Positions 7,985 to 16,322 are shown, counted from the stretch's first letter. The stretch: 42,923 nucleotides of DNA from Thermodesulfobacteriota bacterium (GCA_028282145.1 JANQIN010000026.1:1-42923), one strand, 5' to 3'. Made by a program: numbers and translations. The notes: generated by a model from the sequence alone, not told the origin.

Positions 7985-8021
7985 AAAAAAGGCGGGATTC
8001 GGTGTAGCACCGAACCCCGCC
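7985..8021 (-). terminator. Rho-independent terminator of the metal/ABC operon
   Basis: Read on the minus strand, 8021-8008 pairs with 8004-7991 (GGCGGG/CCCGCC plus TTCGGTG/CACCGAA, one A-C mismatch) around a 3-base loop, then runs into T6 (7990-7985). It closes the leftward operon after the DUF4857 gene. Confidence 0.88.
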
Positions 8022-8075
8022 CGTCAGCTTCAGCATTGAACAGATCCGACCTTGAGCCGGAAAGATCACTTTCGG

Positions 8076-9692
8076 TTAATTCAATTCGATAAAGTCCAGC
8101 TTATTATAGGCCTTATCAAACAAGGTCGCCCGATAGATTTTCGTATCATCGTAGCGCACGATGTAATGCAGCGGGTTTGCTAGCAGTTTAAAGCTCATGG
8201 TCCGGTAGTCGAACTTTTCCAGATCCAGAGGGATCAACGTATAGTCCGGATACGAGATCAGATAGACCCGGCTGTTACTGTCGATCACATAACCGTAGAA
8301 GTTTTTCTGTCGGTTCTCCGACACCCGAACATGCTGAATATCACCGATGCCTTCAGGCAGGGCCAGCTTATCGACCTTCAGCTGGAAATCACCACGACGC
8401 ATATTAAAGAGTGCGCCGGTGCTGTCTTTGATGAAGTACCCCCAATCGAACGGTTTCATATTGGTGGTCTTGCCCCAGATACCGGTAATGGGAAACTGCA
8501 GTCCGGCCTCCTTGAAGGCAGCGTTGATCTGGTCGGTCAGTTTCTCCATCACTTTGACCGACTCGGCCTCCCAGACCTTTACCCGATCGTTTTTGACCGA
8601 CAGGATCTCCTGCGGGAAGGGGATGACCCCTTTATCGCTCAGCGGATTAAACAGGGGGTAGAGCTGCGCTTCCTTGGTTTGCAGGTAACTCGGATTGTAG
8701 GCCAGGGTCAGGCGGGCCGATTTGATGCGGTCGCGATCGTACAGTTCGCCCTGCACTTCGACCGGCAGCAGGCCCTGAATTTCGAGGTTTTTCCAGTACA
8801 CGAAGGGAAGATTGTCTTCAAAACTGAAGCGCCCATAGGACTTGGTCGGCGTGGCATAGTGGAAATCATGCCCGGCGCCGTTTTTCTGATACAGCCACTC
8901 GTTGAGAATGGGCGAATACCAGATGTAATACTTCTTGAACTCCTTGGCGATCTCCTCCTGATAGCGTTGCCCACCGATTACCAGGATCAGAGCGCAGGCT
9001 GCCAGACCGCCGCCGTAAGCGATCCATCGGGGCAGGCGCAGGCTTTTGACGCTGAGGAAGCTGTCGTAGACCGCCAGCACCAGCCAGATACTGACCAGAA
9101 GCAACACCAGATCGTTGGGGCTATAGCGCTCTTTGAAGAACAGCAGGGCGATGACCAATGCAAAGAACAGCTTGCCCCAGCGTTGCCAGTTGCCACGTTC
9201 GATAATGACGCTGGCCAGCCCCAGATAAAGGATCAGCGCGGGCAGCTGCCAGTAAAGGCAGTCTTTGATCACTATGCGCACGATCTCCGGGGGATAATAG
9301 TCGGCGGTCATCCAGGCCAGCATCCCTCCCAGCACACCGTTGACCAGGAGCAGTGCAACCGCCCCCGCCAGCAAATGGTGTCGCACCAGTGCATCAAGCG
9401 GGACCGGCAGATGGGTCAGGATACGCACCCGGTTCTGGATTGCTTCGGGTAGAAACTGGCCAAAGGCAAGCACCGCAGCAGCCAGAAGAAAGAACGGCGC
9501 CAGATAGGCGTACGGTTTGTCTTCCAACTGGGCAAAACGGTACCACATCATCGACTCAGGCTCGATGGTGGCGTAGGCTGTGCTCAGCTCAAAGCCGTAA
9601 TGTGCCCCGGCGGCCGCAGCCGCCAGAACCAGCGGCAGAAGCAATCGCTTCAATTTGAGCCATTCTTTTTGGTAGATCGCCTGCACTTTCAT
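8076..9692 (-). CDS. DUF4857-type ABC transporter membrane protein
   Basis: 538-residue membrane protein, presumed partner of the adjacent ATPase. It has about eight hydrophobic segments in the first 250 residues (for example LLLPLVLAAAAAGA, YAYLAPFFLLAAAVLAFG, LAACALILVIGG). A hydrophilic region of about 285 residues follows, with WIWP-free, YP-rich repeats such as SYPDYTLIPLDLEKFDY that look like a periplasmic beta domain. The layout fits ABC-2-like exporters of the DUF4857 family, whose substrates are unknown. The start codon overlaps the ATPase stop by one base (TGATG), so the two are translationally coupled. A strong terminator follows. Confidence 0.8.
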   Translation of the reverse strand: MKVQAIYQKEWLKLKRLLLPLVLAAAAAGAHYGFELSTAYATIEPESMMWYRFAQLEDKPYAYLAPFFLLAAAVLAFGQFLPEAIQNRVRILTHLPVPLDALVRHHLLAGAVALLLVNGVLGGMLAWMTADYYPPEIVRIVIKDCLYWQLPALILYLGLASVIIERGNWQRWGKLFFALVIALLFFKERYSPNDLVLLLVSIWLVLAVYDSFLSVKSLRLPRWIAYGGGLAACALILVIGGQRYQEEIAKEFKKYYIWYSPILNEWLYQKNGAGHDFHYATPTKSYGRFSFEDNLPFVYWKNLEIQGLLPVEVQGELYDRDRIKSARLTLAYNPSYLQTKEAQLYPLFNPLSDKGVIPFPQEILSVKNDRVKVWEAESVKVMEKLTDQINAAFKEAGLQFPITGIWGKTTNMKPFDWGYFIKDSTGALFNMRRGDFQLKVDKLALPEGIGDIQHVRVSENRQKNFYGYVIDSNSRVYLISYPDYTLIPLDLEKFDYRTMSFKLLANPLHYIVRYDDTKIYRATLFDKAYNKLDFIELN

Positions 9693-10549
9693 CAGTATTT
9701 ACCCACAAAGCCGAGAAACTTCTCTTCAAAATTCACTTGCACTTCGGTCAGCGGCTGGCCAATCTCCCGCTCCAGCTCTTCCCGGTCGAAAAAGCTGAAC
9801 AACTGGTGGCCGGTCTTATGTGTTTCAAACCGATGAACCTTGTCGGAGGCCGCAGGAGCCTCGGTGCACTCATAGCATCGAAACCCCCTGCAAAAGCCAG
9901 CCATGCTGTTCTGGTAAACATCGGTCGAGCGATCAACAATAGCGATCTCGTCGACCAGATTTTCCAGGTCGTTCATCACATGAGAGGTGATGAGAACCGT
10001 CTTCTCGGTTCCGTAGAGATAATCCTTCAGGTAATCGACAAAGAGACGGCGATAGCCGGCGTCGAGCCCCATGGAATAATCGTCGAGGATCAGCAGGTCG
10101 GCATCCTGGGCAAAGAGCAGTCCCAGCACCACCTGAGATTTCTGACCGAAGGACAGAGAGGACAGTTTCTGCGTCAGACTCAAATCCATCAGGTCGATCA
10201 GTTCGAAAAAGACCTTGCGATCCCATTTGGGATAAAACGAGGAGAAGAACCGTTCCACCTGTGTCACACTCATGGTGTCGTAAGAGGTGAAACCCTCATA
10301 TAGCAGGGCGATACGCTCCCGGGTTTCGGGCGGAAGGCAGTAGGAAGATTCGCCCAGGATGAGGCATTCCCCCTGCTGGGGCCGGATATACCCCATCAGG
10401 ATATTGATCAGGGTGGACTTGCCGACCCCATTTTTTCCCAGCAGACCAAAAACAGTGCCGGTCTGAATTTCAAGGTTCAGATCGGCATAGATTTCCTTAC
10501 TGCCATAGGCGTGATACAGCTGCTTGATTTCAATGGCCGGGGTAGACAC
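9692..10549 (-). CDS. ABC transporter ATP-binding protein with degenerate motifs
   Basis: 285 residues. Walker A is intact (GLLGKNGVGKST), but the signature reads LSFGQKSQ instead of LSGGQ, and Walker B reads LLILDDYSMGLD, with Asp where the catalytic Glu is normally found and Tyr where Pro is usual. The switch histidine is present (LITSHVMNDLE). A C-terminal extension of about 75 residues has cysteines (CRGFRCYEC). Translation starts at GTG 10549, immediately after the stop of the Cys-rich gene, and ends overlapping the DUF4857 start. The pair is of the ABC-2 type and the substrate is unknown; context suggests metal homeostasis. Confidence 0.88.
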   Translation of the reverse strand: MSTPAIEIKQLYHAYGSKEIYADLNLEIQTGTVFGLLGKNGVGKSTLINILMGYIRPQQGECLILGESSYCLPPETRERIALLYEGFTSYDTMSVTQVERFFSSFYPKWDRKVFFELIDLMDLSLTQKLSSLSFGQKSQVVLGLLFAQDADLLILDDYSMGLDAGYRRLFVDYLKDYLYGTEKTVLITSHVMNDLENLVDEIAIVDRSTDVYQNSMAGFCRGFRCYECTEAPAASDKVHRFETHKTGHQLFSFFDREELEREIGQPLTEVQVNFEEKFLGFVGKY

Positions 10550-10696
10550 TCAATCAGACTCCTTCGTGCCTTTGCTGCTGTCATGGATCCCGTCGCAGGT
10601 CGACTTGCCACAACCGCAGCCTTTCTTCTTGAACATGCTGCGGTAGATATAGAAGACTGCAACGGCAAATACGAGGGCGATAAAAAGCTGTTCCAT
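10550..10696 (-). CDS. FeoB-associated Cys-rich membrane protein
   Basis: 48-residue protein. One N-terminal transmembrane helix (MEQLFIALVFAVAVFYIY) is followed by a basic stretch and a cysteine cluster, FKKKGCGCGKSTC (C27, C29, C34), then a charged tail. This is the layout of the small FeoB-associated Cys-rich proteins found with feoAB in many anaerobes, proposed to bind iron or help the FeoB pore. AAGGTG lies upstream of the ATG. Its TGA stop abuts the GTG start of the ABC ATPase, and a hairpin separates it from the DUF4198 gene. Confidence 0.85.
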   Translation of the reverse strand: MEQLFIALVFAVAVFYIYRSMFKKKGCGCGKSTCDGIHDSSKGTKESD

Positions 10697-10718
10697 GTAT
10701 TCACCTTACCAGAAAATG

Positions 10719-10747
10719 TCCGGCACCGGTCGTCGACCGGTGCCGGA
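10719..10747 (-). terminator. Strong hairpin between the feo genes and the ABC genes
   Basis: TCCGGCACCGGT (10719-10730) pairs perfectly with ACCGGTGCCGGA (10736-10747), a 12-bp GC-rich stem with a CGTCG loop. On the minus strand only a short T-rich stretch follows (CATTTTC). It is probably a partial terminator that lowers expression of the three downstream genes relative to feoAB. Confidence 0.6.
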
Positions 10748-10755
10748 ACAGGGGG

Positions 10756-11571
10756 TTACTGCATATCTTTGGCTTCAACCCAGATAACGGCGTCCTGGCT
10801 CAGCTCTTTACCCTTGTGTTCGGTATCGCTACCGGCACCCAGAGCGCAGAAGCCCCACCAGCCAGCCTTGGGCAGACCGAAGGTGAACTGACCGTTGGCA
10901 TCGGCTTTGATGCCCTGAGTCACGAAGCTGTCCTGAGGGGCGCTAAAGCGCTTCTTGCCCATGGCGTTGGCAGTGATGTCAACGTCGTGGTTCAGGTATT
11001 CCACTTCGATCTCAGCGAAAGGAACGGGCTTGCCGTTTTGCTTGACGATACCGGTGAAGGTGGAACCGGTCCAGATGGAGTAAGGCTTGTTCAGCGGAAC
11101 GATTTCGGCCTTCAGACCCAACTCAGCGTCCCAGTCGGTGGGCGCACCAGCCACATTGACAACCATCTTGGTGATCTGCTGGATGTAGATATCTTCGTTG
11201 CTCTCGTAGTAGGGAGCCGGCTTCATCACGAACAGGTGATCGCCCATGCGGCGAGCCTTGTACGTCGATGCATAGCCACCGGCCGAGTTGGTGGTTCCCT
11301 TCCAGGTGATGGGCTTCAGGGTCGGCAGCAGGTCCTTCTTCTTCCCTTTGTTGATGACATAGAACTCCTCGACCGGAGCCGGAGTCTTGCTGTCATGCTG
11401 CAGGCCCATTTCCATGGTGTGCTCATCGGCGAAGGGGTGGTTAAACACGTGGCGCAACTCAATGACGCTCGGCTTTTCCAGAGCCGAATTAGGGGTGTAC
11501 ACCATCTGGAAATGGGCAAGTGCGTTACCGGCAACCAGGGCGAAAATAAAAACCATTATCAACTGCTTCAT
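10756..11571 (-). CDS. Secreted DUF4198 protein (NikK-like metal transport accessory)
   Basis: 271 residues with a clear signal peptide ending NALA, so the mature protein would begin HFQMVYTP. DUF4198 proteins are periplasmic, made of Ig-like beta domains, and occur with ECF nickel/cobalt transporters (NikK) and other metal importers. Histidines cluster near the mature N-terminus (RHVFNHPFADEHTME, GLQHD), as expected for a metal ligand set. GAAGGAG precedes the start. It lies after feoB and the small secreted gene in the same orientation, so a role in delivering metal to FeoB is plausible. Family membership is likely; the metal is not known. Confidence 0.82.
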   Translation of the reverse strand: MKQLIMVFIFALVAGNALAHFQMVYTPNSALEKPSVIELRHVFNHPFADEHTMEMGLQHDSKTPAPVEEFYVINKGKKKDLLPTLKPITWKGTTNSAGGYASTYKARRMGDHLFVMKPAPYYESNEDIYIQQITKMVVNVAGAPTDWDAELGLKAEIVPLNKPYSIWTGSTFTGIVKQNGKPVPFAEIEVEYLNHDVDITANAMGKKRFSAPQDSFVTQGIKADANGQFTFGLPKAGWWGFCALGAGSDTEHKGKELSQDAVIWVEAKDMQ

Positions 11572-11614
11572 AAAAAAACTCCTTCTCTCTACACGAATGA
11601 TTTAAGCGGTTAGA

Positions 11615-11926
11615 TTATTCGACGATGTCCTTACCGTCGACATAGACTGCATGACCTTCACCAGCGTTGAAGACCGCCTGGTATTTACCGGAGGGCTTCT
11701 TGAAGTTTACTTCACTGTACTCGTTCATTTTGGTTTTGAGGATCACCTTACCGTTCTGCTCGACACGAAATTCGACACCGCTGGCGCTGCTGCCGTCGCT
11801 GAAACCGCCTTCGCAGGTGATGGTACCGTCACCCTCATCAAAGCAAGACATCAGTGCCGAGTGCGCCATGGCCGACGTGGCCGAGAAGACCAACAAGCAA
11901 GCCAGTACAAACAGTTTTTTCAGCAT
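11615..11926 (-). CDS. Small secreted protein (NikL-like in size and context)
   Basis: 103 residues. The signal peptide ends SAMA, so the mature protein of about 82 residues would begin HSALMSCFDEGDG. It has two cysteines (MSCFDEG...ITCEGG) that could form a disulfide, and a beta-rich body (GVEFRVEQNGKVILKTKMNEY) resembling a single Ig-like or CopC-like domain. The start overlaps the end of feoB by 7 bases, and AGAAAGGG lies upstream inside feoB. Size, secretion and position before a DUF4198 gene recall NikL of nickel ECF systems, but I cannot confirm homology by eye. Confidence 0.75.
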   Translation of the reverse strand: MLKKLFVLACLLVFSATSAMAHSALMSCFDEGDGTITCEGGFSDGSSASGVEFRVEQNGKVILKTKMNEYSEVNFKKPSGKYQAVFNAGEGHAVYVDGKDIVE

Positions 11927-14373
11927 TGTTCTAACCCTTTCTCCATTTTTCCGACATGCCAGCCGGAGCGTTTTGTTCTTAAGAAACCCAAAATCAGTGT
12001 CGTCAGTACAACGGCGATATAGAAGTTACGCATCATCTCCGCACCGGTCCAACCCAGGGTCAACGCCAGGCTGAAGGCCGCGGTGGAAAGACCGATCCCC
12101 AGAGCAATGGGGAAGAAGATGGCAAACAGCATCCAGCGATACGAATTGGCCTGCAGCCGGACCACCACCATGGTAGCGATACACGGGGGCGTCAGAATCA
12201 TAAACAGCAACATCGACGAGGCATGAATCGGCGTGTAGGCCCCATCCTGAGCAAAGGCCTCTTCAGGGCTCAGGTCCGACTTACCTTTCTCATAGATCGA
12301 CCCCAGGGTCGCGACGGCACTCTCTCGTGCCGCAAAGGAGCTTAAGAAAGCAACGTTGATCCGCCAGTCAAACCCGGCATAGGTAGTCAACGGCTCCAGC
12401 GCACGACCGAACATGCCGAGGAAGGAGTTGCGGATCTTCTCGCTTTTGATCGCAATCTGTAGACGCTTATTGACCTTGGACAGTTTACGTAACTGACGAT
12501 TTAACTGTTTCGCCTCTTTATTGTCCGGACGCACCAACGGGAACAACTGGGGATTTTCAGCCAGATACCTGGCATCCATACCCGCGACCGCCTCTTTGCT
12601 TGTAGCCAACATCCGGTTGGCCTTGTAGCTGTCGTAAATTCCCAGCAGAGCAAAGACCTCATGCGGTTCATCGACAAACTCGGCGTACTGGGTCTTCGAG
12701 GCTTTCTTGGTGAAGGACGCAATCGCCTTGTCCCCTTCCTGATGGAAGCCGGCCATCTTTTCGTCGGACACTCCCGGGTACTGCAGCAGTACAAAGAGGA
12801 CGACCGCCACCGCTACTACAATGGTAACCACCTTCTTTACATAAAGCCAGACACGCTGACAGGCGCGGAATAAAACGCCGCGCACCGTCGGGATGTGGTA
12901 GGCGGGAAGCTCCATAACAAATGGAGCCGTCTCATGGTTTTTGAGTACCGTTGAAGTCAGCAACCGGGCAACGATCAGGGCGATAAAAAGGGTCACTGTC
13001 GAGATGTAAAACATCATGATCGACATCTGATCCTTGAAAAAGGCCCCCAGCAACAAGGTGTAAAACGGCACCTTGGCCAGACAGTTCATGTAGGGGACCG
13101 TCAGCACCGTCGCCAAACGGGCTCTGTCGTCGGCAATCCCCTTGGTGGACATGACACCCGGTACGGCGCACCCACCGACAAAGGCGCCACCAAGGACCAG
13201 AGGCAGCGTCGACTGTCCGTGAAGGCCGAAACGCTTGAAGACCCGATCGAGTATAAAGGCCATTCGCGGCATATAGCCCACATCCTCCAGGATGGCGATC
13301 AAGGCAAAGAGGATGAAGAAGATGGGGAGATAATTCAGCAATGCCAACACCGAGTTGGTCATCCAGATACCAAAGTCGGTTATCAGCGGCACTTCGATGG
13401 ACGTCGCCACCGGCAGTATGGAGATAATCTTGTTTTTCACCGCCGCCAGAAGCGGCCAGGTGTAATCGGTCAGCTTGTAGCCATACACGATGGCGAGCTG
13501 GTAAATGGCGCAGATGATGCCGAACAGGATCGGGAAGGCAAGCCACTGGTTGAGGATAATCCGGTCCAGGCGTGCTGTAATCGTATCCTGGCTTCCGCCC
13601 TCCTCCTTGACACACTTGTGAAAGACCACATCGGCATTCTGGTAACGGAGCCGCGCAATCGCCTGATCAACATCCAGATCGTGGGTGCGATGAATCTCAT
13701 CGGCCAGGTCGGTCACCTCGGCAGCAGAAATACCGGTTCGTTCAAGCACAACCTGGTCTTTTTCCAGGGTCTTGATCGCCAGCCAACGTTGGGGAAGAGC
13801 GGTCTCCACCCTGATCCGCTCTTCCAGTTGGGTGATATAGGGTTCGAGAGCATCGTAATCGATACGGAAGGGCTCAACCGTCTTTGTCGCGCTGGCCCGT
13901 CGAACGGCATCAAAAATCTCCTGCCGCCCTTCCCGCCTGGAACCGATGGCTTCAACAACCTCGACGTTGAGCAGTTCAGACAGACTGGCCGAGTCGATAG
14001 AAATATTCCGCCGTTCGGCCACGTCCATCATGTTGAGGACGACAACAACCGGTTTGCCGAGCTCAAGGAGCTGGAAAGTCAGATAGAGACTGCGCCGCAG
14101 GGTGGCAGCATCCACCACATTGACGATGACATCCGGAGCCTCATCCATCAGAAAGGTCTTGGCGACCCGCTCTTCCAGCGAATAGGTACTGAACGAATAG
14201 GTTCCCGGCAGATCAACAAATTCGAATTTGGTGCCTTCAATCTGAATCCGGGCCGTCTTTTTGTCGACCGTCACCCCCGGATAGTTGGCGATGTGCTGGT
14301 TGGCCCCCGCCAGAAGATTGAAGATGGTCGACTTACCGCAATTGGGCTGCCCGGCCAGTGCTACTTTGGTCAT
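11920..14373 (-). CDS. feoB: FeoB-family metal transporter
   Basis: Inner-membrane transporter with a GTPase domain, 817 residues (the family is usually about 650-780). The G motifs are GQPNCGKST (G1), the GVTVDKK threonine (G2), DLPGTYS (G3) and NMMD (G4). The core membrane part follows. The two gate motifs differ from the norm: GGCAVPGVMSTKG instead of the GCNVPAIMATR pattern, and PYMNCLAKVP instead of PFMSC-S/G-AR-LP. A hydrophilic segment of about 115 residues (around 530-645) lies between late transmembrane helices and is longer than usual. It overlaps feoA by 4 bases (ATGA). Iron(II) import is the default call; the changed gate leaves manganese, nickel or cobalt possible. Confidence 0.93.
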   Translation of the reverse strand: MTKVALAGQPNCGKSTIFNLLAGANQHIANYPGVTVDKKTARIQIEGTKFEFVDLPGTYSFSTYSLEERVAKTFLMDEAPDVIVNVVDAATLRRSLYLTFQLLELGKPVVVVLNMMDVAERRNISIDSASLSELLNVEVVEAIGSRREGRQEIFDAVRRASATKTVEPFRIDYDALEPYITQLEERIRVETALPQRWLAIKTLEKDQVVLERTGISAAEVTDLADEIHRTHDLDVDQAIARLRYQNADVVFHKCVKEEGGSQDTITARLDRIILNQWLAFPILFGIICAIYQLAIVYGYKLTDYTWPLLAAVKNKIISILPVATSIEVPLITDFGIWMTNSVLALLNYLPIFFILFALIAILEDVGYMPRMAFILDRVFKRFGLHGQSTLPLVLGGAFVGGCAVPGVMSTKGIADDRARLATVLTVPYMNCLAKVPFYTLLLGAFFKDQMSIMMFYISTVTLFIALIVARLLTSTVLKNHETAPFVMELPAYHIPTVRGVLFRACQRVWLYVKKVVTIVVAVAVVLFVLLQYPGVSDEKMAGFHQEGDKAIASFTKKASKTQYAEFVDEPHEVFALLGIYDSYKANRMLATSKEAVAGMDARYLAENPQLFPLVRPDNKEAKQLNRQLRKLSKVNKRLQIAIKSEKIRNSFLGMFGRALEPLTTYAGFDWRINVAFLSSFAARESAVATLGSIYEKGKSDLSPEEAFAQDGAYTPIHASSMLLFMILTPPCIATMVVVRLQANSYRWMLFAIFFPIALGIGLSTAAFSLALTLGWTGAEMMRNFYIAVVLTTLILGFLRTKRSGWHVGKMEKGLEQC

Positions 14374-14678
14374 ACAAACTCCACCTGGATAAGAGCGGCC
14401 TCGGTTTGACGCAGGGTCACCAGGTAGCCATGAATCTCAATTTCAATAGGATCGCGCAATGGCGCGTTCCGAACCATCAGAACCTCGGTGCCGGGCACAA
14501 AACCCATGTTCATCAACTTCTGCCCCAGCGCCCCGGTTGCGGAGCATTTCAGGATAGTGGCCTTCTGATTTTTCTTCAGATCGGCGAGAGTGGTGGCCGA
14601 CCTTCCCGAACAACCGGAACCACCGGTGCCCGATTCACTGCCACTATCCACTATCTGCTCTACCGGAAAATCCTTCAT
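14370..14678 (-). CDS. feoA: FeoA-domain protein
   Basis: Small cytoplasmic SH3-like protein that works with FeoB, about 102 residues from this start (family 75-100). The FeoA core runs from TLADLKKNQKATILKC through LGQKLMNMGFVPGTEVLMVRNAPLRDPIEIEIHGYLVTLRQTEA. An N-terminal extension of about 25 residues is Gly/Ser-rich with one Cys (SGSESGTGGSGCSGRS). The start is set by AGGAG in front of ATG 14678; a further in-frame start at 14723 lacks this. The stop overlaps the feoB start. Confidence 0.92.
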   Translation of the reverse strand: MKDFPVEQIVDSGSESGTGGSGCSGRSATTLADLKKNQKATILKCSATGALGQKLMNMGFVPGTEVLMVRNAPLRDPIEIEIHGYLVTLRQTEAALIQVEFV

Positions 14679-14798
14679 CTCATCTCCTGATCTCTGTACT
14701 TCACCTGCGTCGGCTGCATTCAACCATTACCCTCTTTCAGGAAGGTCTGGGTGCTGCGAAAATAATCTACTACCATCTTTCTAACGGCCAGACAAGGG

Positions 14799-14823
14799 GA
14801 AAGTGAAATTCGGTTTCATTTTC
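14799..14823. promoter_or_regulatory. Operator-like inverted repeat upstream of feoA
   Basis: GAAAGTGAAA (14799-14808) and TTTCATTTTC (14814-14823) form arms matching at 9 of 10 positions around 5 bases. It lies next to a weak minus-strand -35 candidate (TTGTCT, 14795-14790) for the feo operon. A second palindrome, AACCAT-C-ATGGTT, lies at 14828-14840. The match to a Fur box is poor. The 450-base stretch between feoA and the porin start contains these elements and the Fur-like site at 15052, and no gene that I can support. Confidence 0.4.
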
Positions 14824-15051: not shown

Positions 15052-15068
15052 TTGATAACGGTTATCAA
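15052..15068. promoter_or_regulatory. Fur-box-like palindrome upstream of the porin gene
   Basis: TTGATAAC-G-GTTATCAA is a perfect 8-1-8 inverted repeat. Its core TGATAAC-G-GTTATCA fits the classic Fur 7-1-7 pattern (TGATAAT-N-ATTATCA) at 12 of 14 arm positions. A half-site TTGATAAC recurs at 15093-15100. It lies about 65 bases before the porin start and 375 bases upstream of feoA. Confidence 0.65.
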
Positions 15069-15131: not shown

Positions 15132-16133
15132 ATGAAACATATCCTCGTAACCCTTACCGCCCTGGGATTGGTTCTGGCCATCACCTTCCCCGCCTTTGCC
15201 AGCGACCCGACAATTTACAGCTCCATTCGTATGCAGACCTTTTATGTGGACGGTGACGATGGGAGCACCGACACCAAAGATCTGAAGTGGACCCTGCAGG
15301 GGAACACCCATATCGGTGTTGACTTTGAAGTCAGTGACGCTGTTTTCGGGAATGTCGAGCTGGACATCGGTGACGGAGTTGAACTGAGCGCCGCGTTTGG
15401 GGTGTGGGATTTCGGGCCAGGCAATCTCATGATTGGGCAGGATTCCGCACCGTTTGACTGGGGGCCCGATCAAGTAGCCGCAGAGGACAATGATATGGCC
15501 GGGTATGGTTCTCTGGGCATCGATGCCGCGGCTCAAATGACCGTCAATATGGACAACGGCTTATACCTGTCACTTTTTGACAATACCAACGACAATGTCA
15601 ATAGCGACGACATTGAGCTTCCTCTTTTGGCTGTTGGCTTCAATGGTGAAACCGGCAACACTGCTTTCGGTTTTGGTGCTGCCTATACCACCTACGAGAA
15701 AGCCGCCGGCATGGATGCCAATACTTGGTTGGCCTATGCCCAAGCCGAACAAGGCCTTGGTGCAGTGACTTTGCTGGGTAAAATCTACTACGGTCAGAAC
15801 CTGGGTGAGCTCGGCGGTTATGCCGGCCCCAGTGCCACTTACGATGCGACCGGCGATGAAGACGCCGACACAATCGCAGGCTTCCTTGCTGTGGCCGGTC
15901 AGGTCAACGACAAGGTTTCCTACCTGGCAGCTATTGGGTATGCTACCACCGACCGCGCCGACTACTCGGACGATGATGCACAACTGTCTTACTATGTCCA
16001 GTTTCCTATCGAGGTTTCCAAAGGATTCCAGGTCGTACCCAGTGTCGCTGTTTTCGACAAGCTTGATGATACTTCCGGCAACGACGAAGGGAGCGAGCTT
16101 TACGTTGGTGCAAAGTGGCAGTTTGATCTATAA
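15132..16133 (+). CDS. Porin-like outer membrane beta-barrel protein
   Basis: 333 residues. A signal peptide ends at about AFAS (MKHILVTLTALGLVLAITFPAFA). The mature protein is rich in alternating hydrophobic/polar beta strands, Gly and acidic residues, and ends VGAKWQFDL, consistent with a C-terminal outer-membrane insertion strand. Length and pattern fit a general porin, but I recognise no specific family. AGGAG precedes ATG 15132; an in-frame ATG at 15093 lacks a ribosome site. It is transcribed divergently from feoA under a Fur-like palindrome, so a diffusion channel for cations or iron complexes induced by iron limitation is a reasonable guess. A terminator hairpin follows. Confidence 0.85.
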   Translation: MKHILVTLTALGLVLAITFPAFASDPTIYSSIRMQTFYVDGDDGSTDTKDLKWTLQGNTHIGVDFEVSDAVFGNVELDIGDGVELSAAFGVWDFGPGNLMIGQDSAPFDWGPDQVAAEDNDMAGYGSLGIDAAAQMTVNMDNGLYLSLFDNTNDNVNSDDIELPLLAVGFNGETGNTAFGFGAAYTTYEKAAGMDANTWLAYAQAEQGLGAVTLLGKIYYGQNLGELGGYAGPSATYDATGDEDADTIAGFLAVAGQVNDKVSYLAAIGYATTDRADYSDDDAQLSYYVQFPIEVSKGFQVVPSVAVFDKLDDTSGNDEGSELYVGAKWQFDL

Positions 16134-16278: not shown

Positions 16279-16307
16279 TTGACATCTTCCCTACTTTCTT
16301 CTACTTT
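16279..16307 (+). promoter_or_regulatory. Promoter candidate for the small RNA
   Basis: A perfect -35 TTGACA (16279-16284) has a 17-base spacer to TACTTT (16302-16307), a weak -10. An alternative -10, TATCAT (16317-16322), lies inside the Fur-like site but lacks a good -35. Either would be blocked by a protein bound at 16306-16322. Confidence 0.45.
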
Positions 16308-16322
16308 GAAAACGGTTATCAT
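16306..16322. promoter_or_regulatory. Second Fur-box-like site
   Basis: TTGAAAACGGTTATCAT differs from the porin-side palindrome at 15052-15068 at only two of 17 positions (an A for T in the left arm and the last base). It overlaps the predicted -10 or start of the small RNA. Confidence 0.55.

Follow-up and report, generated by a model that had tools for sequence, protein, structure and literature searches.

We propose that the leftward operon at 7985-14678 of the window (the whole 42,923-nucleotide stretch of Thermodesulfobacteriota DNA that was analysed) specifies a FeoB system under Fur control that has two periplasmic metal-binding proteins of its own and, optionally, an ABC device, a reading to which we would give a probability of roughly 0.6. 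Comparison of genomes shows that FeoA, FeoB, a predicted secreted NikL-like protein and a predicted secreted DUF4198 (NikK-like) protein are encoded together and travel together; metal binding by the pair, delivery of the metal to FeoB and the part played by the ABC proteins are what we infer. Seven ORFs, all on the minus strand, were recovered in exactly the order first claimed for this locus: feoA (14370-14678; 102 aa from an ATG at 14678, a longer frame being possible from a TTG at 14723; PF04023, E=9e-20); feoB (11920-14373; 817 aa; PF02421, 3e-62, with PF07670 and PF07664); the gene for the FeoB-type, NikL-like secreted protein (11615-11926; 103 aa); that for the NikK-family DUF4198 secreted protein (10756-11571; 271 aa); that for a FeoB-associated, Cys-rich, single-TM protein (10550-10696; 48 aa; PF12669, E=6e-7, passing the gathering score of 27 with 30.0 bits); that for an ABC transporter ATPase (9692-10549; 285 aa; PF00005, ABC_tran, E=2e-19); and that for a DUF4857 protein (8076-9692; 538 aa; PF16149, E=4e-62). 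The gene junctions of the original prediction were reproduced as well: feoA and feoB overlap by 4 nt (14370-14373), feoB and the NikL-like gene by 7 nt (11920-11926), and the ATPase and DUF4857 genes by 1 nt (9692), while the stop of the Cys-rich gene (10550) abuts the GTG start of the ATPase gene (10549). The strong terminator expected at the operon end is also there on the minus strand, running from 8022 to 7990 (7990-8022), with a 15-bp stem containing 10 GC pairs and a TTTTTT run.

The FeoB encoded here has GTPase, Gate and C-terminal domains and is accompanied by FeoA, as expected of a Feo system, and it scores 470 bits against TIGR00437 (cut-off 315). It belongs to a clade defined by its neighbours: in trees built with and without insert columns, the NikL-linked FeoBs all fall to one side of a single branch that has 100% SH-aLRT support, and NikL linkage requires 1 change on the FeoB tree against a shuffled mean of 15.9. 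The unlinked FeoBs that were checked in context are without NikL and without DUF4198. A loop of 136 residues (532-668) is weakly suggested, by hydropathy and charge, to be periplasmic. We considered, and rejected, that a long loop might be found in this clade alone: at this position the linked FeoBs have 132-146 residues and the unlinked ones 21-119, some of them reaching 110-119, with one of 139, so that the lengths overlap and the loop is typical, not diagnostic. Three genomes of the phylum have FeoB divided, near mid-protein, between two neighbouring open frames (L055, 5815-8319; L057, 9075-11582; L059, 8639-11140).

The association of this FeoB clade with the NikL-like protein was quantified by running a NikL-like model on 395 genomes of the phylum and a linked-FeoB model on a draw of the same size. 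The NikL scores form groups (above 90, about 56-70 and below 43 bits) and the linked FeoB class scores above 845 bits, the next class topping out at 735 bits. FeoB-type NikL, the high group, occurs in 27 of the 29 genomes with the FeoB clade and in none of the 366 others (Fisher p about 9e-40, a value that overstates the certainty since related genomes are not independent). One of the two NikL-less genomes has FeoA-FeoB-DUF4198 with no NikL match, and the other is truncated at a contig end. Where context is readable the high-scoring NikL genes adjoin FeoB, the exceptions being L074 (a truncated contig) and L076 (a second copy); low-scoring ones lie mostly with DUF4198 and ABC ATPase genes, in the style of nickel systems, and most of their products carry a C-terminal membrane anchor.

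The arrangement reaches far beyond related genomes. When 84,980 species genomes were scanned, 355 relatives were confirmed, and the best 80 of these 355 span Desulfobacterota (Desulfuromonadales and others), Campylobacterota, Pseudomonadota and Deferribacterota, with Vibrio, Photobacterium, Proteus, Oligella, Ignatzschineria, Helicobacter and SAR324 among the sources. FeoB adjoins NikL in 73 of these best 80 loci (62 immediately upstream, 10 divergent, and L135, where FeoB is also divergent and lies in two frames); four of the remainder lie near a contig or locus start, and L115, L139 and L142 are FeoB-less outright. DUF4198 adjoins NikL in 73 of the best 80 of 355 too. This is not a chance neighbourhood, and homology, synteny and the single FeoB clade together uphold the central claim of the original prediction, namely that this FeoB system has NikL/NikK-like periplasmic proteins dedicated to it. 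In four Vibrio loci (L107, L114, L119, L135) a single DUF4198 gene lies between two FeoB-type NikL genes, with feoAB divergent and ABC-DUF4857 after the second NikL gene.

The likeness of the secreted proteins to NikL and NikK proved to be one of homology, by searches with NF058648 and PF10670, and not of membership of the nickel families. The NikL-like protein matches NCBIfam NikL NF058648 (E=3e-12) at 46.8 bits, below the cut-off of 100, covers only positions 2-88 of the 180 in the profile, and lacks the C-terminal membrane anchor that is present in Nik-type NikL sequences; a sub-threshold match to the first half only marks it as a NikL homologue and not as NikL. The DUF4198 protein passes PF10670 comfortably (E=1.5e-55; 189 bits, gathering score 34). 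Predicted cleavage at an A-x-A/H pattern would leave both mature proteins starting with histidine (His22 of the NikL-like precursor and His20 of the DUF4198 one), and an N-terminal histidine of a mature protein is a recognised type of metal ligand. In the mature FeoB-type NikL proteins H1, C7, C17 and H71 are invariant (41/41 sequences), as are H1, H26 and H32 in the mature FeoB-type DUF4198 proteins (36/36), although H1 is invariant partly by construction, the aligned sequences having been chosen by a pattern that demands His at the predicted cleavage site. Most of the few sequences that miss the pattern still have His after a small residue; the DUF4198 protein of L142 does not. Nik-type NikL lacks the Cys pair but retains the first His and usually the later one; H1 and H26 of DUF4198 are common to the Nik type, and H32 is absent from the aligned Nik-type proteins. 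On these alignments the FeoB-linked pair is diagnosable, by two invariant cysteines (C7 and C17, which could form a disulfide) and no C-terminal anchor in NikL and by an extra invariant histidine in DUF4198. The FeoB-type NikL group is not a strict clade in a short-column tree. The mature NikL-like protein is confidently modelled as an Ig-like fold (AlphaFold pLDDT 96); its best fold match, MG1 of alpha-2-macroglobulin (Z 12.3), we read as a shared Ig-like fold and not as a shared function, and no convincing sequence-related solved structure was found for either secreted protein. Plasmid-borne DUF4198 proteins account for 18 records, below 60% identity.

Regulation by iron is suggested by a scan with a Fur matrix built from published sites (PMC545781). 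A Fur-box-like palindrome, TTGATAACCGTTATCAA (15052-15068; 17.8 bits), lies between feoA and a divergent gene, and a second site (14803-14819; 15.0 bits) lies 5' of feoA; weaker sites are predicted within feoA (14430-14446; 15.2 bits) and at the start of the DUF4198 gene (11546-11562; 15.6 bits). Five of the six best predicted sites in the 42.9 kb window are in or beside the operon, and the Fur-like sites score above the expectation from shuffled sequence. Most clade relatives likewise have a site 5' of feoA (shuffle p <=0.015; L091, L116 and L098 are without one), and Fur and flavodoxin genes are recurrent neighbours at other loci. The divergent gene (15132-16133, plus strand) has a signal peptide and no Pfam match and probably encodes an outer-membrane beta-barrel; it shares the Fur-like promoter region and is possibly co-regulated with the operon, and in Geobacter porins adjoin Fur-regulated feoAB (PMC545781). 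The top score of the window, 20.3 bits, belongs to a site at 16306-16322, between this divergent gene and a methyladenine glycosylase gene.

Between the DUF4198 and Cys-rich genes lies a hairpin (10719-10747, minus strand) with a perfect 13-bp stem and no good T-run, which had been suggested to split the operon into two levels of expression. The suggestion gains partial support: a strong hairpin does occupy this gap in the window and in 10 of the 10 relatives examined, but the hairpin sequences are unrelated, and what is conserved is the position. A clear T-run follows only two of these hairpins, which makes a role in transcript stability or partial termination likelier than full termination.

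The genome to which the window belongs holds three NikL/DUF4198 pairs: the Feo pair, a NikM-NikL-NikK set and a pair in a haem-type operon. The NikM-linked NikL scores 104.3 bits against the NF058648 cut-off of 100, and NikM, NikQ and NikO are all absent from the FeoB block. We therefore rejected the idea that the Feo pair has strayed from a nickel ECF transporter, since a separate, true NikM-NikL-NikK set is present. The third pair lies in locus L077 (C28 of the same genome, 1992-11937) with genes, in this order, for a TonB receptor, the DUF4198 protein, the NikL-like protein, PepSY_TM, the radical SAM haem-degradation enzyme HutW, a 240-aa frame, CbiQ, a double ATPase and flavodoxin. The locus is probably an operon for haem/iron uptake under anaerobic conditions, equipped with an ECF-type transporter and a NikL/DUF4198 pair of its own. 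With three pairs beside different partners in one genome, the pair seems to be a periplasmic module that has been put to use with more than one kind of metal or haem importer.

These findings bear on which metal is moved and on what the secreted proteins do. IcuB belongs to COG5266, the group of DUF4198 type. Links with nickel and cobalt are on record for the NikL and DUF4198 families (PMC2667541; IcuB, PMC2732905), and a manganese-specific FeoB homologue, PG1043, has been reported in Porphyromonas (PMC10434189), so that this FeoB clade might move Ni2+, Co2+, Mn2+ or Zn2+, with the NikL/NikK-like proteins marking its specificity. We consider this improbable, given the Fur-like promoter sites and the recurrent flavodoxin and Fur neighbours, the NikM-NikL-NikK set already present, and the fact that the operon's FeoB is the only one in this 94%-complete genome. 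Relatives of the accessory genes also respond to iron elsewhere: DUF4198 genes of Caulobacter are Fur-repressed and iron-responsive (PMC3751524), and a DUF4857-ABC locus of Bacteroides thetaiotaomicron rises 36-128-fold on iron depletion (PMC10434189). Expression of the IcuB locus, for its part, rose during evolution under metal limitation (PMC2732905).

Hardly more credible is that the secreted pair acts as a ferric reductase or electron-transfer accessory, or as an outer-membrane-side scavenger, as suggested for DUF4198 with PepSY and DUF2271. DUF4198 is indeed common in PepSY-like clusters (1500 clusters; PMC8238504), and the third pair of this genome adjoins a TonB receptor, a PepSY protein and HutW; but neither the NikL-like nor the DUF4198 protein matched a known flavin- or haem-binding domain, the NikL-like protein is a small Ig-type beta fold, and the conserved FeoB block is without a PepSY or cytochrome gene.

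The ABC pair is a looser part of the system. DUF4857 is encoded in 7 of 60 related genomes, that of the window included, and in these the whole seven-gene order is kept, contig-end truncations aside: six relatives have FeoB and the following five genes in identical order, two of them being without FeoA, with the contig starting inside FeoB. Across the best 80 of 355 loci ABC and DUF4857 genes are found in 28, and their place varies: several Campylobacterota have them ahead of feoA, Vibrio behind NikL and Desulfuromonadales behind DUF4198. Thus the predicted linkage of the ABC pair stands, but as an optional module and not a fixed part; its absence from most loci indicates that it is not essential to the basic system. 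For the prediction that the pair is exporter-like we would substitute a NosFY-like one, by fold match. The AlphaFold model of the DUF4857 protein (pLDDT 89) has a NosY/ABCG-like transmembrane half (1-215) and a beta-rich half (about 250-538) that is presumably extracytoplasmic. Over about 200 residues the membrane half matches NosY of NosDFY (Z 14.4), ABCG1 (14.0) and CcmB (13.8), with the caveat that middling Z values are common among helical bundles, and Foldseek alone gave weak matches (E at least 0.016), so that the NosY-like call leans mainly on the second aligner. NosDFY includes the periplasmic beta-helix protein NosD; the C-terminal half of the DUF4857 protein has only weak matches, of beta-propeller type (Z about 9). 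In seven loci (L051, L065, L137, L140, L149, L162, L166) the two halves are separate genes, which supports a two-part design like that of NosY and a periplasmic partner. In L080 (G336, 8126-9301) a NikL paralogue lies directly before a short frame whose match is to the final 76 positions of DUF4857, and FeoB is not adjacent.

This patchy occurrence in 28 of the best 80 loci also suits an ABC-DUF4857 pair that is a separate iron-regulated transporter, be it an exporter of chelators or peptides or an envelope-stress device, and that merely shares the Fur regulon. The position-conserved hairpin parts the pair from the secreted genes, ABC-DUF4857 has been reported with TonB receptor and PepSY genes in Bacteroides (PMC10434189), and P19/FTR1 loci such as that of Campylobacter hold ABC genes of unknown substrate (PMC6083913). 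We regard this as a serious though unlikely reading: the ABC pair joins the block at different positions in different lineages, with NikL directly upstream of the ATPase gene in Vibrio, which favours a functional tie to the FeoB system.

We propose that, after signal-peptide cleavage, both secreted proteins would begin with the invariant histidine, offering its amine and imidazole as ligands, and that H71 and perhaps C7/C17 of the NikL-like protein, and H26/H32 of the DUF4198 protein, would complete metal sites. These sites may collect periplasmic Fe2+ and pass it to FeoB, possibly via the 136-residue loop. With less certainty, where the ABC ATPase and the DUF4857 permease are present, ATP hydrolysis might move the extracytoplasmic domain, as in a NosFY-like machine, and so load, unload or mature the periplasmic carriers, and the Cys-rich membrane protein might be a FeoB accessory. 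The hairpin after the DUF4198 gene could allow the secreted proteins to be made above the level of the downstream membrane machinery. Our boldest suggestion, which we hold tentatively, is that this is a widespread, separate class of FeoB with a periplasmic metal-delivery pair (in effect FeoK/FeoL), which a NosFY-like ABC-DUF4857 device serves or drives in some lineages, ATP-driven periplasmic remodelling feeding the FeoB channel.

The operon bears on how iron reaches FeoB from the periplasm: the Feo partners described to our knowledge, FeoA and FeoC, both lie in the cytosol. It supplies candidate periplasmic FeoB partners that are genetically linked and co-distributed in several phyla and that have diagnostic residues. 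Neither a FeoB-NikL link nor a single operon of FeoB with DUF4198 was found in the open-access literature; the only paper there to name both FeoB and NikL is a 2004 survey of delta-proteobacteria, which puts them in separate systems. Our findings also bear on the orphan NikK and NikL proteins left unexplained by a survey of nickel transporters (PMC2667541), and for the iron-responsive DUF4857 they provide a working hypothesis and the prediction of a membrane half resembling NosY.

Among known systems, FeoABC is alike in having FeoA, a FeoB with all the expected domains and Fur-type regulation (here as predicted sites); the present operon instead adds two secreted NikL/NikK-like proteins and sometimes ABC-DUF4857, its FeoB falls in a separate clade, and there is no FeoC among the genes found here. 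The NikKMLQO nickel/cobalt ECF system has a homologous NikL and NikK (DUF4198) pair beside a metal importer, but the importer here is FeoB and not NikM/NikQ/NikO, NikL is short and anchorless with two invariant cysteines, and DUF4198 has its added invariant histidine. The FTR1/P19 operon (FetMP-type; Campylobacter 1649-1656) resembles ours in combining an inner-membrane iron permease, a periplasmic metal protein and ABC permease and ATPase genes in one operon with Fur control (predicted for ours), whereas the FeoB operon has a different permease, different periplasmic proteins and no thioredoxin. Finally, NosDFY and NosL cooperate in building a copper site in the periplasm, and this role is the basis of the analogy that we propose for ABC-DUF4857: the membrane half of DUF4857 resembles NosY, and in either system a metal protein is accompanied by a periplasmic domain or partner, but in DUF4857 the periplasmic half is fused (though separate in some loci) and has weak propeller-type matches, and the metal expected is iron.
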